From Stenocarpella maydis (lineage: Eukaryota > Ascomycota > Sordariomycetes > Diaporthales > Diaporthaceae), in the NCBI GenBank assembly GCA_002270565.1, contig NQMI01000063.1, positions 62,001-126,000 of the forward strand: a stretch of 64,000 nucleotides of DNA, in the 5' to 3' direction. Both the position numbers and the translations under genes were made by a program. Of the stretch, positions 11,067-29,500 are shown in pieces; positions within the stretch are counted from its first letter, which is position 1; every line of letters begins with the position of its first letter. The notes under the pieces are model-generated. The model was given only the letters and a program-made list of their open reading frames with translations, made no database searches and was not told the DNA's origin.

Positions 11067-12753
11067 GACGGCAGTGGTTCAAGACGGACTTGGGCGAGAC
11101 GACTGTAGGGCGGGCGGCGGCAGCGGAGATGTCAAGCTTAGAGAATGATTGCGTCGACGTCACAGCCAAACGCAACCAGACAGAGGGATGGGTTTGGGGG
11201 AGGGCAGCAGGGCGCGTTGGCTCGGGAGGGGTTCACCGGGACCAAGCAGGCGTCACTGGATTCACCAACAATGGGACAGACGAGGCTCCCAGGCTGGGCG
11301 AGGGTGAGGTTGTGGGTTGAGGTGAGGCTGACAGAATTTGGGGGTTGTCGTCTCAACACACCTCGCAGCTATCTTGGAAGAAAGACCCAGTCCAAAAATT
11401 TCGAGCTCTGCTAGGCTCTGGTGCTAGGAACCGGGTGCTAGGGGGGGGGGGAAGTAATGAGGGTTTGCCATACGCCGAGGGAGGAATCAGAGATGGACCG
11501 TGCACGGCTGGCTACTCGAGCTACGGCTGGTGTTCATCAGGTATCTACAGATAAGAGCAAGCACTATACCTGGGTGTAGATGGACCTGGGTAGGTACCTA
11601 CTCCGTACACAGAGCAGAGAGCCGGTGCAACAAGATGGACAAATATGCAGGTACACGGTTTATATGTAATAGTATGCAGAATATGTGTGCTTCATCCAAG
11701 TACGACAAATAGTCGTATTATCATTGAGGACAAGAGGCAGTCCCCGACAAATGGAGGACAAATTAATCAACAGGCCGTGTAATTATAGAGGCAGCCCCTC
11801 TTACTTAGCGGCACCCCGCGCCAGGAGCTGACCTTGTCCAACAGAAACAGACACAGGCCCGGACCGTCTGCCATCACATATGTCCTTGACACCTCTAGTG
11901 GAAGCAAAGTTCTAAGTGTCTCTCTTTTTTTCTCTTTTTCCCCCCTCATGTGGCCTGGGCCCAGTCTCTTCTTGCCCCTTATCCACCCATCAATCAGCAG
12001 CAGCAGCTTTGAAATCACCGCATGAGAGAGAGAGGGGAAGGGGAAAAAACCCCCCAAGAGACCAGAGCGGCAGAAGCCACGACCGACCACATCCTGCAGC
12101 AGGTAGACTGCGAGCTCAACCCGCGACTCAGGCCGTCGCTTCAGCCAAGCAAGCAGGGTAACTACCCAGCCAGGCCTACCAAGCACCGCTCCGGCTTCTT
12201 CCTATGCTGTCTCTCTTGAGAGGCATTTCACCACCACCTTCATCGCCAGCGCTCCCTCCCTAAACACTTGCTTTCCTCGGCGACAACCTTGGAACCTAAA
12301 ACAACCTATATTCATACTTATTATCTGGAGCAATCGCACCTGTGCAGTCGAATTCGCCTTGCGTCCGGAGACTACCTTTTTACTGCCCCTTGACCTCCAA
12401 ATCGACACCTATCCATCCCGGTACGCCAGACATTGTGCCTGTATGGATCAACATATCGCTTATCCTGGCAGGCACTGAATATATATATATATACATCTAT
12501 TAGACCGCTTGCCTGCTTGTTCTGAGAATGGACACGCTTCTGTGAGTACTATTCCCATATATGTGGCCTTGCTTTGCCACGAGACCAGACACCCACTCGC
12601 CCTTGCCCAAGAACCCACACCCCCCCCCTATTCCTTGACCTCTCTTCCCATTCCCATATGAATCCACTCTGGATCGACATCGGACAAAGTCAAGTCCACC
12701 TGTTGTTGGCCCGCCACGTTCCTGTCAGCCTCAGTGCAATATCACTGGCTAAG
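11067..12753. promoter_or_regulatory. Divergent promoter region between tom40 and the phosphofructo-2-kinase gene
   Basis: The tom40 and kinase genes point away from each other, so this stretch must hold both promoters. It contains a G-run near 11440, a CT-rich block at about 11916-11945 and an alternating TA tract at about 12478-12493. A possible extra first exon for the kinase lies at 12528-12541. No ORF in it resembles a protein. Confidence 0.55.
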
Positions 12754-14757
12754 ATGGTCATCACTCTCATCGCTCTAGACAAATCCCGACCCCAGCCTCG
12801 ATTGGAGATTGGGGATGATCTAGACGTTCGCCCAGCTGATTCAAACAGAACGGCCGAGATCGCGGCCAACGCACCGCGGTACCGTCGGAAGAGCTCGACT
12901 TTCATCGATGCCATCCACGATGTCACTGATGATCAGGATATGGCCCCGGCCCAGCTCTATAGCACCATGTCTGGACGACTCTTCCACTCCGGCAGGATAG
13001 CAATCGTCATGGTCGGTCTCCCAGCCAGGGGAAAAACCCACATCTGTGTCTCCATGGCACGCTACCTTGCCTGGCTTGGAGTCAAGACTCGCATCTTCCA
13101 CCTTGGAGACTATCGCCGTGCCACCGTTGGCCCTGGCGGTCACGTGCCAGAGGACTATTTCTTCCCAAACGCCACGCCCTCTTCCGTCATGCTGCGCCAG
13201 AAGATCCTCAAGAAGTGTCGCGAGGATATCTATGGCTGGCTCAACCACGAGAATGGCCAGGTCGCCATCTACGATGCTGTGAACCCCACAGCCGCTGGCC
13301 GGCGGTCCCTGGCTAAGGAGTTTGCGAAACATGACGTTCAAGTGAGGCTTTTCTACCGGTGCGACCCATTACTTCGAGTGTGGACAGTATGCTGACGCTC
13401 AAGCCAGACTCTGTTCCTCGAATCATACGTCGATGACGATAAGATTCTGAGGGAGAATGCAAGAAACGTCAAAATTCATTCCCCTGATGTGTGTGCCAAG
13501 TCTAAATAGTCCTCTGCAGCCTAAATGAGACTGACGGTTGCTGTAGTTCCACGGCATGGATCCGGACGAAGCTGCCAAGCTCTACCTCCGCCGGATTGAG
13601 ATGAAAATTCCAGTCTTCGAAACCATGAATGAGAACGAGCTGAACTACGTGAAGATGATCAATGCTGGCCAGGGTTTCTTCTACAACAATGTCAGCTTCA
13701 ACGTCAGTGTGCCCCCTCGTGTCTTCTGATATAGCTGGGGATACCCGGGTGAATCCTCAACCCTGGTATTCATGTCGTTCAAAGCACGAGGCTACTGACA
13801 ACCTCTGGGTAGTATCTCTCGCATCGTATTGTATTCTACCTCACAAATTTGCACATAAAATCCAGGACAACGTTCTTCGTCCGGGCCGGTGCCGCAACCG
13901 AAGAAGACTCGTATAAAGCCGACGGCGGCCTCAGCGAGCCAGGCCAGGCTTACGCTCTCAAGATGACAGAGACCCTCATAAAACATCGCGAGCAAGAACG
14001 CCAAGCAGCCAGAGAGGCTGGTGGGCCTGAAGTTCCCTTGAAGCCCTTGACAGTATGGACGTCAACCAGATTGCGAACGGTACAGACCGCAAAACATTTC
14101 CAGGACAAAGGTTACAAAGTCCGCCAGCGGTCCCAGATGAGCCAGATCAACCCTGGCGTCTGCGAAAAGCTATCTGAACGAGCCATCCGTAGCATGTATC
14201 CTGATGAGGTCGAGAAGCACGAGCTGGATCCGTATCACCATCGCTACCCACGAGCAGAGGTAAGCCGCCCGTGGAAACATTCAAAGTAAAGGCCATGTTG
14301 CTAAGCACTTGTTCAGTCGTACCACGACCTAGCCGTCCGCCTCGAGCCCATCATCCTGGAGCTAGAGCGCGAACAAAACGACCTCCTGATTATTGCGCAC
14401 GAGTCTGTCCTGCGCGTCTTGTACGCTTACTTGATGCATTGTAGCACGACGGATATCCCAAAGCTCAAGTTCCCCCGGGACGAGATTATTGAGATCATCC
14501 CCGCGGCGTACCAGAACGAGGCGAAGCGTATCCACATCCCCGGTCTGGATCCGAGAATGATACCCGGGTCACCTGAGGACATCCGTATTCCAGTACCGAG
14601 CATGCCCCCGAGTGGGGCCCTGAGCCCAATACCAGGCCTGTCTAGTCCGGTGGAGGGTCATGCCACGCCGGTCTCTATGGAAGGGCAGAGGCCACCAGAG
14701 AAAGTCATCAACAAAGCCGCGGAGATGGTTGCGGATAAGGTTGCAGACGAGGACTGA
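12754..14757 (+). CDS. 6-phosphofructo-2-kinase with inactive bisphosphatase domain
   Basis: Makes fructose 2,6-bisphosphate from fructose 6-phosphate and ATP, the cytosolic activator of phosphofructokinase-1 and repressor of gluconeogenesis. Five exons: 12754-13341, 13408-13488, 13547-13702, 13813-14259 and 14317-14757, all introns phase 0, giving 570 residues. The kinase half has the Walker A loop GLPARGKT (residues 88-95) and the family block YDAVNPTAAGRRSL. The C-terminal half follows the phosphatase fold, but the catalytic RHGE is VRAGA (Ala300 for His) and the catalytic Glu of the E-I-x-A-G motif is Gln (QINPG). Only the second His survives (IIAHESV). It should therefore be kinase-only, like yeast Pfk26. 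Start is uncertain: ATGGACACGCTTCT at 12528-12541 followed by GTGAGT could splice to 12735 and add 11 residues in frame. Confidence 0.92.
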
Positions 14758-15433
14758 TTGAGGATGCGAGATGCGGAAGTATGCAATGATATCTGATAGC
14801 GGTGGCGGTTCCTCTCTAGAAGTGATGCCTGACTCTCATGTTCTTTGCAGAATGGATTTATCTCGTCATGCGTGTGTAGAAGTAGATTTACGAACATGAT
14901 AAGTTCCTTACAATAGCTATCATCGTCGGTGCAATATAAAGTACAAGTTGGTCAAGCCCAGGTGTGATCCAGTGTGACCGTTAGCCATCCAGAGTTTCCA
15001 ACAGGTAATGAATTAAGATTTGTGGGAGGCCCTCCCCCATCCTCCTTGCATCCGCGGAAACCTCGGGTTGGCTGAAGCCCAAGAAGGTTCCACCGAAGGA
15101 CAAGAAATTGAAATATGTGTTGTACAAGGTTTGTTTCAAAAGGGGTTGGAAAAGTGTTCTTTCTTCATGTTGGCCGCAGCTGCCCGTCAGGGCCGAACCT
15201 GCTGCTTTTTCGTGTGGGGGCGCGCGCCCTCGTATGCCATCGCCGACGGCGAAGCAGCACCTGTGTTGACTGCTAGTAGTAGGCGATGGCCGCGGCCAGT
15301 CGAGGCGGTGGCCCTTATGTGACAGAAGTCCGAGGCGTACGGATGGGACCTTTAGAAGTAGTTGTGCCGCCTCTCACTGCTGCTCCTGGAACCCCCCGCC
15401 TGCAGGGCAAAGACGCTCCCAGGGGAGGCTGCC
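14758..15433. other. Convergent 3' region between the kinase gene and the CaaX micro-gene
   Basis: Presumed 3' UTRs of the plus-strand kinase and of the minus-strand CaaX ORF. The ORFs inside are short and unlike any family. Confidence 0.5.
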
Positions 15434-15517
15434 CTACATGACAAGGCACACAGCGTAGCCGTTCCTGGCCCCGAGGGCGTCCTTGACAGTCCGGGTCTGC
15501 TTGGTGGTACGAGACAT
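15434..15517 (-). CDS. 27-residue CaaX peptide, candidate lipopeptide mating-pheromone precursor
   Basis: Too short for ordinary gene calling. The ATG at 15517 has A at -3 and opens a 27-codon frame that stops at 15434. The first 10 residues are Ser/Thr/Lys/Arg-rich. The end is NGYAVCLVM: Cys, two aliphatic residues and Met, the signal for farnesylation, AAX trimming and carboxymethylation. Known a-factor-like precursors of filamentous ascomycetes are of this size, start with a Ser/Thr-rich prosequence and often end in Asn-Gly-Tyr...Cys-Val-Val-Met, so this is a good match by pattern. None of its 25 internal sense codons after the ATG and before the final ATG ends in A, whereas the overlapping frames have many, which supports real coding. 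An in-frame TGA at 15550-15548 closes off extension unless an upstream exon is spliced (GGGCCAG precedes the ATG). It could instead be the last exon of another prenylated protein. An out-of-frame ORF (15666-15352) overlaps it and could act upstream. Confidence 0.55.
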   Translation of the reverse strand: MSRTTKQTRTVKDALGARNGYAVCLVM

Positions 15518-16586
15518 TCTGGCCCGTTGTTTGGGGCTCGGAAGAGTTCAGAGATTGCCGTGTAAATGGTGGATGGTGCCGTGAGGATTTGGGATATTGC
15601 TGATGATGAGCTGGGTGAGGGGCCGAGGATGCCATCCTCGGTGGGCGGTTGTTTATAATCCATCATGGCTGTACGGTATTGAGTTAGCAGTGCCTGTCAG
15701 ATGTGTTAGTCCCTGTCGGGCAGGACTTGCTAATTATCAACGCCTACCCAGCTTCGGATATTTGTGGCCAGCAGGTGGGCCTGTTACGATTGTTGTTAGT
15801 ATTGTTTGTGTCTCCTGGCGGTCGAGATGTGATGGCCAGCGTACGGTCCTGACCAGCGGTGTCTGTGGGATGGGTCTTCCTGCTTATCGACATGTACCTG
15901 CCCCGGGTATTTACGACCAACAGCGTGAGCCTGTTATGATTGTTGAGAGTATCATTCGTGTTTACTGATGGTCGAGAGATGTATCATCTGGCTACACCTC
16001 AAGAGGCATCACCTCAGAGGTATTCCGCTGCGAGGAGAACAGAGTGGAGGGAGGCCAGCTGTGCTTATTGAGTAAACCTTTCAAGGAGCTTAGTATTGTG
16101 TTCTGTTATTATGGGTGCCACGCGAGCTGTTGCCTGCAATAGCAACGCCGGCCTACGTCGCTGCAACGTGCGGTGGCGCCGAGACACTGTTGGTTCACTA
16201 CCTTTCAAAACTCAAGGACTGTGGCAATAGAATTGTCTTGTCAGAAAATGCTAGACGGCAAGCTGGTGGCAGAAGCAGCATTTCCTTGTTCTGGCCTGGT
16301 TTTCGTTTGTGGGTGGCTGTCCGCGCGGCCGCACACAGGAGGCCTTTATATTGTGCCTTAGTATTGTTATTTTGATTATGCGGTATGAATGTCGCCACAA
16401 CTGCCACCTTGATCTGGATCGCCCTCCTTGATGACTGACTCTTGTATGCCTTCAAATATGATCTGTTGGAACACACACAAGTCCTCCCGTCTGTGACGAT
16501 TCCCCTGGCTAGGGTGGGTATGCTGGTGACCCAGTCTTGACATGTTGCAGAGCCCGGCCGCCCCACATGCAATATCCTCCTGGGTC
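15518..16586 (-). promoter_or_regulatory. Upstream region of the CaaX micro-gene with repeated TTAGTATTGT elements
   Basis: About 1.07 kb between the micro-gene start and the cyanase stop, both on the minus strand. The 10-mer TTAGTATTGT occurs three times, at 15796-15805, 16090-16099 and 16358-16367, with different flanks. Further ATTGTT cores lie at 15789-15794 and 15939-15944. ATTGT/ACAAT is the core recognised by HMG-box proteins, which include mating-type regulators. That these drive the micro-gene is my inference. Confidence 0.4.
15711..15980. repeat. Diverged tandem duplication, period 150 bp
   Basis: The segment around 15711-15830 repeats at 15861-15980 with an exact 150-nt offset over the best part. 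GTGGGCCTGTTACGATTGTT at 15775 pairs with GTGAGCCTGTTATGATTGTT at 15925, and both copies run on into TGGCGGTCGAGATG or TGATGGTCGAGAGATG. Many differences are transitions. The outer edges are vague. Confidence 0.65.
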
Positions 16587-17289
16587 TTAGAAGCGGGTGA
16601 AAGGCAGCCTGAGTATCCAGGTTAGTCTGTATATCCGGTGCAGACGTGCAAAGCCACTGCAACTCACCATTTGCCCCTCCAGGTGATGACCACCCAGGCA
16701 TCGCCCTTGTCGTCGACCTCCTTCTCCACCTTGGTGCTGAAGCAGATGGCGCTCATGATGCCGTCGCCGAACTTCTCGTTCAGGACCGCCTTGTAGGCGT
16801 AGCCGTAGTTCTGGATGACCTCGTACAGGCGGTAGATGAGCGGCTCGACGGGGGGCATGGGCCCCGAGCGGCCGCGGTCCGGGATGGCCATTAGCTGGGG
16901 CGCCAGGACCTCCCTGGGGATGCCGAGGAGCGCCGAGAGCTTCTCGACATCCTGGGCGGAGGCCTGGGCCTGCCCGTAGAAGATGGCAGCGACGGCGACC
17001 TCGCTGCGGCCCAGCAGGTTGGCGATCTCGGAGAAGGTCAGGCCGGCCTTGGTCTTGGCGTTGAAGAGCTGTGAGGCGTGTCAGCCGCATGTTGGTAAGG
17101 TGTGTTGTGTATGGAGCCCCATGCCATGGCCGGTGGATTCATGTCATCAACTGACTTACAGTCTGCGAGTGCGCCGGCAGGCGGTCAACGATGGAGCTCT
17201 ATTGCCTCTGCTGTCAGCTTCATCACCGCGCTGGAAGATGATGAGGGATCTCGTACATCGAGGGTCGCAAGCCGCTTCTCGTCGGCCAT
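16587..17289 (-). CDS. cyn1: Cyanate hydratase (cyanase)
   Basis: Converts cyanate and bicarbonate to ammonia and carbon dioxide (via carbamate), detoxifying cyanate and freeing nitrogen. Four exons on the minus strand: 17289-17257, 17198-17160, 17068-16668 and 16608-16587, giving 164 residues. The first junction joins LATLD to [13 protein letters not shown], the second joins that to [21 protein letters not shown], and the last makes WRGKW+LPFTRF, restoring the family's C-terminus. The N-terminal part is the helical domain ([16 protein letters not shown]). The catalytic triad is present: Arg104 and Glu107 in [11 protein letters not shown], and Ser130 in FGDGIMSAI, equivalent to Arg96, Glu99 and Ser122 of the E. 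coli enzyme. The second exon is only 39 nt, easily missed by gene finders. The enzyme is a decamer in bacteria; here presumably cytosolic. Confidence 0.95.
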
Positions 17290-26500: not shown

Positions 26501-29500
26501 AGTACACCTGCGAGAAGTGTGGCGGAACCTGGAAAAACGACATTGGCCTCAAATACCACTTGCAGAAGGCCAAAGTCTCCTGCAATCCATTCTACGCTGA
26601 ACACCCCGAGCTCATGATCAAACAGAAGCCCGTCCGCACCAGCCGGTCGATTGTCAGGACGCCCGAACCCCAAGATGAAGTCGCCAGCCCTGGGGGTAGT
26701 GGGAAGAGCAGTTCCAGTCTCCCGCCTTCGCCTCGGACCCCCAGGTCTGCCCGTGTTCCCAGAAAGAAGTCATTTGCCCCTAAATTCGTGGACCAGAGCG
26801 ATCCTGTGAATCAACGTACTATACTAAAGCAACGGAGCGTACTGAGCAAGAACCACTTCCGGGTATCAGGCGTGTCGGCTCCCCGCGGGCTGAGAGTCTC
26901 AGAAGCTGTTGCGAAGGATGCAGCAAAAACAATCGAGAGTGCTGCGGAAGAGGTGGACGCCGCCAACGCGGAACCAAGCGCAGCCTCGATTGTTGTCAAC
27001 GACCATACGGTAGACCATACGGTACCCGAGGACCCGAATGACACCCAGCCAGACGAGGATCTGCCTTATCTTGCACACATCCGCGCTGAGAATACAAAGG
27101 TACAACCGAGGCATTCAGCCACTGGCCTCCAAGACTTTGGGCCTGAAAACCGGGACGGCGAACGGGGCATCGACGTTGCTCAAGAGGTCCCTGAGGCACA
27201 GGTTATGGAGCCAGCGGCGAGTCTGGAAGCAACTTCGCACACGGGCTCGGAAAATGCGATTCCGTCATACCCCAGGCCTGCTTTCCAAACGAATGCATCT
27301 TCGTCGTTCGAGGCTTATCCCCTTGAGGTGCTTGACGAAACAACGCAAAAAGCCACGAATGGCAACATGACCACCAATTCCCAACCATATGAAGTCGCGT
27401 TGGCGTTTCCGCATGTATCTCTGTCGAGCACGCAACTTGGTGCCATAGCACGGGAGGCCCTACCGGCGCAACGTTCAACTTTCTCGGCCGAGACTACTGG
27501 AGAAACATTACAAGAAGACTGGCAGCGGGGTGAAGCTTTCCAAGAGCAAGTACCCCCGTTCCGGTTGCCACTTCCAGACCACAAGGCCAGAACTGCCAAA
27601 GAGGTGCGTTCACACAAGATCGAGGAAATTGTCCGGTATCTTCTCGCCAACAATGGCGGGGTATTTCCAAGTGGCACAGCATTATTTTACGCTATCTTGA
27701 AGATATTCATGCGCGAGTGGCCGGATCAGCCGTTGCCGACGACAATGGGTGTCACCAGGGTTATCAACAGGCTACGAGAACAGCAAGAGATCAAGGAAGT
27801 CTCCTCGGCATACAAGTCGCCTCCTGAGCGCCTTTGGACGACATTGGTCATACTCACGCTGACCCACACCGACCCCAATGGTCCTGTTGCCGGAGATCTC
27901 AAGAAGAAGATGAAAGCCGCACAACCGGATATTTACATCCCCCCGGTGTTTGCTCCCGATGAGAGGGAGAAAGCGTACTTCAAGAAACTCGATATACTTC
28001 CTGCCCAACGTGGCAGAGGCCCCGGTAGACGTGACCACAAACTTGAGGAGGAAATTGTGAAACTCGATGCGCCTTTCTATCTTGAAAAGGGTCTTGCTGG
28101 GGTACGACCGCGTCGCCCACGTCCCCTACAGTCTGAGGATGAAGAGTCCAACGCTGGAGATGGTGAATCAGACGTTGGCGACATGGCTACTCTACCACGT
28201 CGCCACGGCCGGAAGCGAGCTGCCGCAGGTCCGTCTTTGGAGGGACCGGCGTCCAAGAGGCCAAGAGGAAGAAGACCCAGCAACAGGATCACATTTGATG
28301 CTGTCGATGACAATGAAAATCCGGTTTCATGGTCGATCAAACCGCACAAACGAAGTATCGATGAGTCTCAAGCGACAAACCCAGTCTTAGGGTCCTTGCC
28401 TGCTTCATTTTTCTCAGGGACTGCCGGCACGCCGGCCAGTAGCTACACCGCTCCAAGCAAGTTGCAGTTCCTCGAGCCAAATACCCGCCTGGAAGAGGAA
28501 GACGAGCTGGGCATCGAACCGGACGACGTGGACGAGACCCATACGAGCGAATCAGTGGACGACCCCGCAGATTACTCAGTGCAAACCACAACAGATGGTT
28601 CATTCACAAATATGATCGAGCTCGAGTCGACAGGAAAGGGCGTATGGCCGGGTATTCACAATCAATGGTTTGAGGCACACGATGGCAGCTTCACAATGAA
28701 GGGCTGGTTCCCAGAGGCCAGGGAGCTATTAAAGGAACACCTACCGAAGACCATGGAGCAGATGGCCTACAAAATCACAAGTCACTGCAAGACTGACAAG
28801 TGGGCAGATCCAGCCTATGGCCAATTTGTCACCAGCGTGGACGGCTGCATGTTCTGGGAGCTTTCGGATCAGGGATATAGATCCATGTCGGGTACCATCG
28901 CTCCAGACTATGTCTTCATCTGTTTCGCACCGAGCCCTGCAGTTTCCAACATGGCGCCGTGTACACTGCAGTGGCATGACGAGAACAACTGGACTGCCGA
29001 CTCGATTCCTTACGAGAAGCTGGTGCATGATGAAGAAGAGGCGGCCAAGTCGACCGAGACTGCCGAACTATACGGAATCGTTCCACTAGCGGAGCGAGGC
29101 GTACGCCGGGGGCCTGGCAGGCCGCGAAAGTACCCTCTTTCTGTGCGTGACGGACCGCCGCGGAAATATGTCAGGAAGCAGCCGAAGGATGAAAGTGTCC
29201 GCGAGCTCAAGTTACAGCGCGAGCTTACTGCCTATCCGAGAGAGCCGGGTGAATACTTCCGTCAGAAGGGCCAGGAAGACCCTGAAGTTGACTGGAAGGC
29301 CGAGGACACTCGCATCGCTGCATACGTGGCGGTTTCAACGCTCCTGGGCGGCATCAACAAGGCCATGGACTGGGGCGTCATGATGAGGATCTTCCCAGAC
29401 TCGAAGCTGTCGAACCTGCGCAAGTTTTGGGCCACTATCAAGAAGGAGCGTGAAGGGTTCATCCAGAACTTGACTGCCAAGTTTCAAGAAGACTTCCTTG

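Follow-up and report, generated by a model that had tools for sequence, protein, structure and literature searches.

Within the 64-kb window, by which we mean the whole stretch of DNA analyzed, a very short open reading frame on the minus strand raises the question of whether it could encode the precursor of a lipopeptide mating pheromone, the a-factor. The frame (15434..15517, minus strand) opens with an ATG at 15517, closes with a TAG at 15434–15436, and encodes the peptide MSRTTKQTRTVKDALGARNGYAVCLVM. An earlier note had described 27 minus-strand codons with an A at −3 and the ending NGYAVCLVM, and translation confirms all of this; the lack of A-ending codons that it had seen inside the frame extends to all 26 codons after the ATG (13 end in C, 8 in G, and 5 in T). 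Its description of the N terminus as rich in Ser and Thr stands in a mild form, the first 10 residues having 1 Ser and 4 Thr together with 2 Arg and 1 Lys. Its further proposal, that this is the gene of the farnesylated pheromone, gains support from linkage to a cyanate lyase gene, from similarity to known precursors, and from the receptor genes and MAT1-1-type locus found elsewhere in the genome.

The residues directly before the stop form a CaaX box, C-L-V-M (15437..15448, minus strand), for which farnesylation is expected because the box ends in Met. The available text of PMC10569646 gives a C-terminal CaaX box as the single strictly conserved character of a-factors and describes their precursors as very short (<100 amino acids), a range that includes the 27 residues encoded here. 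The same text reports a Gly-Tyr pair near the C terminus as conserved in Sordariomycete a-factors, where it is common and not universal; the present peptide has Asn-Gly-Tyr ahead of the CaaX box (15455..15463, minus strand). Its N terminus, MSRTTKQTRTVKD, is polar (by inspection) and basic and so departs from the hydrophobic N terminus that, with the lack of a signal peptide, serves as a working criterion for a-pheromones in the accessible part of PMC13037118; that criterion was set for the Ceratocystidaceae, and polar residues also open the printed precursors of Magnaporthe grisea and Chaetomium globosum. No Pfam match was found for the 27-residue peptide.

The frame lies between two convergent genes, and Pfam matches bear out the flanking phosphofructo-2-kinase and cyanase genes that the earlier note had named. 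The 6-phosphofructo-2-kinase gene (12658..14757, plus strand) has PF01591 (6PF2K) in 12658–13392 and PF00300 in 13963–14286; its start is uncertain, and its last exon (14434–14757), which has no Pfam match, was assigned by position. The start and the final intron of the cyanase gene (16587..17289, minus strand; PF02560, cyanate lyase, at 16667–16891) were assigned by eye, and with that intron bridged the stop of the gene falls at 16587, about 1.07 kb from the ATG of the short frame, which is downstream of the cyanase gene on the same strand. An a-factor gene near cyanate lyase is described for Neurospora crassa, M. grisea, Gibberella zeae, C. globosum, and Podospora anserina; candidate precursors are encoded on its downstream side in M. 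grisea and C. globosum, as is the precursor of P. anserina. In N. haematococca the space from cyanate lyase to EBP2 holds an h-type frame (PMC3068285). The earlier note had suggested synteny as a check, and in the present genome the cyanate lyase neighborhood agrees with the published one in position and strand, but linkage to EBP2, the other usual a-factor neighbor, is absent; EBP2 lies on another contig (C84), so that synteny with the published a-factor loci is partial. Order and orientation at the cyanate lyase locus are themselves variable, and the arrangement is lost in Hypocrea (PMC3068285); the locus description in that paper does not mention a phosphofructo-2-kinase neighbor. Cyanate lyase (in the Sordariomycetes) and EBP2 are both common neighbors, but neither defines an a-factor gene. 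The available text of PMC13037118 reports no consistent synteny among pheromone loci of the Ceratocystidaceae, so that missing synteny would have counted for little, and its presence here is informative. Judged by a neighboring protein of 353 residues, on which the assignment rests, we take the genome to be that of Diaporthe or a close relative: among the best 120 of 2817 matches, this protein is 80% identical to that of Diaporthe amygdali, 78% to D. ilicicola, 66% to Discula destructiva, and 65% to Cryphonectria parasitica, with four further matches at 78–82%.

We compared the peptide with the two published precursors printed in PMC3068285, those of M. grisea and C. globosum. Both are of the same size class, have a single terminal CaaX box, and are encoded downstream of cyanate lyase, as is the case here; the M. 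grisea box is CVIM, and the final residues of the C. globosum precursor are missing from the printed string. Alignment gave a score of 28 with the C. globosum precursor (M, TTxQT, and NGY in common) and 29 with that of M. grisea, which shares MS, TK, GAR, and the final C and M and has no Gly-Tyr. When the interior of the peptide was shuffled with its ends fixed, these similarities gave p values of 0.0014 (C. globosum) and 0.0167 (M. grisea) in semi-global alignment and of 0.0032 and 0.033, respectively, in local alignment, and among 235 other window frames of 20–35 residues none scored as high against C. globosum and one did against M. grisea. Overall identity to either precursor is low, and unlike both, the present peptide has Ala-Val directly ahead of the Cys. 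The mfa-1 gene of N. crassa, an established a-factor gene whose 3′-UTR is long according to the part of PMC3068285 available, occupies the same type of locus beside cyanate lyase; EBP2 is unlinked in the present genome. Precursors of the h-type, such as Trichoderma reesei HPP1, likewise have a terminal prenylation box but are described in the same source as three repeats ending in CpaX with Kex2 sites; in place of three (L/I)GC(T/S)VM-type units with Kex2 sites, the present peptide has one Cys and one C-terminal unit, CLVM. A further comparison is with C. parasitica, also of the Diaporthales, where strains of either mating type carry the a-type precursor genes mf2-1 and mf2-2 and MAT-2 activates them (PMC7849911, available text). 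Whereas Cryphonectria has two a-type copies, we found one in the present genome, and a search with the peptide at E ≤ 10 gave no further copy. The C. parasitica Mf2/1 precursor reportedly ends in NGYSYCVVM, which would give the same NGYxxC spacing. Among the papers listed by literature searches that named Diaporthe, none reported its a-factor, although such a report may still exist.

Elsewhere in the genome we found STE3-type and STE2-type receptor genes and, on two contigs, prenyltransferase-alpha repeats. A MAT1-1-type locus (L009:3975-8382; G000:C286) holds an alpha-box gene (PF04769) and an HMG-box gene about 2.7 kb apart with an uncharacterized set of open reading frames between them, and we take the two genes to be MAT1-1-1 and MAT1-1-3. 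No Pfam match in the open reading frames of this locus was one that we would assign to MAT1-1-2, and among the 7 of 9 HMG-box (PF00505) matches that were translated (all except L030 and L031) we recognized none that we would presume to be MAT1-2-1. An intron inside the HMG box of MAT1-2-1 could hide that gene, so that the fungus might be homothallic. According to the available text of PMC6562746, control of the a-factor in heterothallic species lies with MAT1-2-1, and the alpha-factor is the only one that MAT1-1 strains express, T. reesei being an exception; the earlier note had held that a missing minus-strand transcript would speak against the gene, yet in this alpha-box strain such a result would be compatible with it. 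In C. parasitica the three pheromone genes are all present in each haploid strain; mf2-1 and mf2-2 show hardly any expression in plain culture and are activated by strains of the MAT-2 type (PMC7849911, available text). By analogy, because the present strain carries the MAT1-1 alpha-box gene, its a-factor gene would be expected to be mostly silent.

The strict alpha-factor pattern WCxxxGQxCW has no match in the genome, and a looser pattern gave 11 matches against 10 for the control, so that the looser pattern alone proves nothing. Of the nine matches inspected (all except those on C271 and C306), only that on C279 has a signal-peptide-like start and Lys-Arg. It belongs to a candidate alpha-factor precursor of 87 residues (L022:3891-4154; G000:C279:129890-130153, plus strand) with a single WCFWKGEPCW-KR unit, in contrast to Fusarium precursors, which are described with 11 repeats. 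The decapeptide sought in the available text of an alpha-factor paper (PMC10057649) does not occur there.

Against the reading of the short frame as an a-factor gene, one might hold that it is a chance intergenic frame that is never translated and that the real gene lies elsewhere. CaaX-ended frames also arise inside unrelated genes (PMC3068285, available text), and the window alone has 541 first-ATG frames of 15–60 residues, of which 19 have a Cys at −4 and 3 follow the CaaX-like rule. In 150 resamplings of the 64-kb window a loose CaaX-ended frame of 20–40 residues appeared in 58% (0.89 expected per window), a Met-ended one in 6%, and the Gly-Tyr version in 1.3%; such a frame somewhere in the window is by itself unsurprising, one loose example is also present among 24 other loci (106 kb), and the motif rules were picked after the frame had been seen. 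The interval beside the cyanase gene gives a different picture, because 3000 first-order Markov resamplings of its 1906 nucleotides (14758 to 16663) yielded the loose version in 3.7%, the Met-ended version in 0.17%, and the version whose Cys is closely preceded by Gly-Tyr in 0.1%. A scan of the 53.5-Mb genome of 312 contigs for GYxxC-a-a-Met-stop, restricted to exactly this spacing, gave one match, against none for the reversed control. Two supports are independent of the CaaX and Gly-Tyr motif, namely the published cyanase linkage and the choice of codons. Synonymous codon choice in the frame is closer to that of the window's genes than to background composition (log ratio 4.76), has a p value of 0.0004 under background composition, and lies at the 99th percentile even of coding-usage samples; its score is reached by 2 of the 1562 stop-free 26-codon stretches of the interval, a set that should itself include the frame's own stretch. 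With the similarity to the printed precursors added, a chance origin becomes very unlikely. Still harder to credit is that the 27 codons belong, as an exon or incidentally, to a longer protein, encoded by one of two overlapping frames of 106 and 104 residues on the same strand in other reading frames or by a spliced gene. Neither long frame has a relative at E ≤ 1 in a protein search that needs shared exact words and scored 2 and 17 candidates, respectively, and we rejected both as rival genes; the stop-free frame that encloses the 27 codons spans 37 residues only; and GT is absent from the 143 nucleotides before the ATG, which argues against a nearby upstream intron or 5′ splice donor.

The frame might also be the relic of a genuine a-factor gene, out of use because the fungus reproduces asexually or by selfing. 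Truncated or lost a-factor genes are reported for unisexual Huntiella species in the available text of PMC10182648, and self-fertility would fit with an intron-split MAT1-2-1 HMG box that escaped our search. Decay of this kind has left no trace in the frame, the CaaX box, or the start context, all of which are intact, and the codon bias is above that of the window's average gene, while the receptor and alpha-box matches carry no stops. We regard disuse as very improbable, slightly more so than a chance origin.

The surroundings of the frame are compatible with a gene. A TATAAA (15652..15657, minus strand) lies at −140, and the putative 5′ leader of about 105 nucleotides (15518..15622, minus strand), whose upstream end is guessed from the TATA box, contains neither ATG nor GT. 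A further ATG at −118 is so near the TATA box that the message probably does not include it, and downstream of it the ATG of the frame comes first. The P. anserina pheromone genes are intronless (PMC3125171, available text), and the T. reesei hpp1 message has an 82-nucleotide leader and a 347-nucleotide 3′-UTR, other a-type genes also having long 3′-UTRs (PMC3068285, available text); the leader of about 105 nucleotides and the 676 nucleotides to the presumed stop of the 6-phosphofructo-2-kinase gene leave room for an hpp1-like leader and 3′-UTR.

Taken together, these data indicate that the 27-codon frame is very probably the a-factor precursor gene of this Diaporthe-like fungus. For this reading speak the CaaX-ended frame, the cyanase locus, the similarity to known precursors, the Gly-Tyr pair, the unique pattern, and the codon choice, as well as the TATA box with its clean leader, the STE3 and STE2 genes, the prenyltransferase-alpha repeats, and the MAT alpha-box gene. 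Against it stand the unlinked EBP2, the polar and basic N terminus, the lack of a Pfam match and of a strict HMG core upstream, the occurrence of CaaX frames inside unrelated genes, and a locus that varies in order, is lost in Hypocrea, and has no consistent synteny in the Ceratocystidaceae. By the known pathway, MAT1-2 cells would switch the gene on, and the precursor would be farnesylated on Cys-24, lose Leu-Val-Met, and then be carboxymethylated, with N-terminal trimming leaving a peptide that ends in …NGYAVC. A Ste6-type transporter would export this peptide, and the STE3-type receptor of MAT1-1 cells would sense it; in the present MAT1-1 strain the a-factor gene would be mostly silent and STE3 used for sensing partners. 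The gene would add a further a-factor precursor to a known class and leaves the understanding of how such pheromones act unchanged. Annotation misses genes of this kind because of their shortness and variability, and placement at the cyanase locus offers a direct route to the a-factor gene in other Diaporthales. Mate recognition in a large plant-associated genus becomes testable in this way, and the region upstream offers a concrete candidate promoter element for mating-type control.

That element is ACAATACTAA, of which three perfect copies in one orientation lie upstream of the frame at −288 (15796..15805), −582 (16090..16099), and −850 (16358..16367), all on the minus strand and spaced by 268 and 294 bp. 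These are all the perfect copies in the 64-kb window, where ACAATACTAA with up to one mismatch occurs 7 times against 1.17 expected, a count reached in none of 100 shuffles. Some other 10-mers likewise reach at least three copies within 1146 nucleotides somewhere in the window; most of these are simple repeats, yet CGGCCTCCTC, GGCAGGGGCA, AGGCGCAAGG, and TACCTAGGTA are among them too, so that three copies alone are not exceptional. The DNA upstream of the frame also holds a pair of diverged direct repeats, each 115 bp long (15713..15827 and 15863..15977), and the proximal copy of ACAATACTAA lies in the former. The two repeats align locally with a score of 94, whereas 1000 resamplings gave at most 34; the repeat finder did not pick them up at the settings used. 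Across the 39 loci examined, exact ACAATACTAA is found in 5, two of them views of the locus described here and three of them views of the EBP2 locus, and it is absent from the alpha-factor, STE2, STE3, and MAT gene loci. The single copy at the EBP2 locus lies just past the EBP2 gene (L010:4909-4918; G000:C84), and that 9.9-kb locus contains no short CaaX-ended frame.

The HMG core A(A/T)CAA(A/T)G is reported for Podospora (PMC3730723, available text), and the site ATCAAAG for the pheromone genes of that fungus; we searched the region upstream of the frame for this published core and rejected it, with 0 matches. We tentatively propose the ACAATACTAA trio within the diverged-repeat promoter as a candidate mating-type switch, an element for the MAT1-2 HMG factor unlike ATCAAAG, although we consider this rather unlikely. 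If true, mating-type control of the a-factor promoter would have been rewired in the Diaporthe lineage, with the gene remaining at its place beside cyanase. The 1146 nucleotides upstream of the frame also contain 7 occurrences of ACAAT/ATTGT, a number reached in 6 of the 629 sliding windows, of which one lies near 27.6 kb and the other five cover this same region. The former, the sole other stretch of equal ACAAT/ATTGT content (27601–28746, 7 in 1146 nucleotides), falls within a long open frame that encodes a TFIIIC B-block domain.
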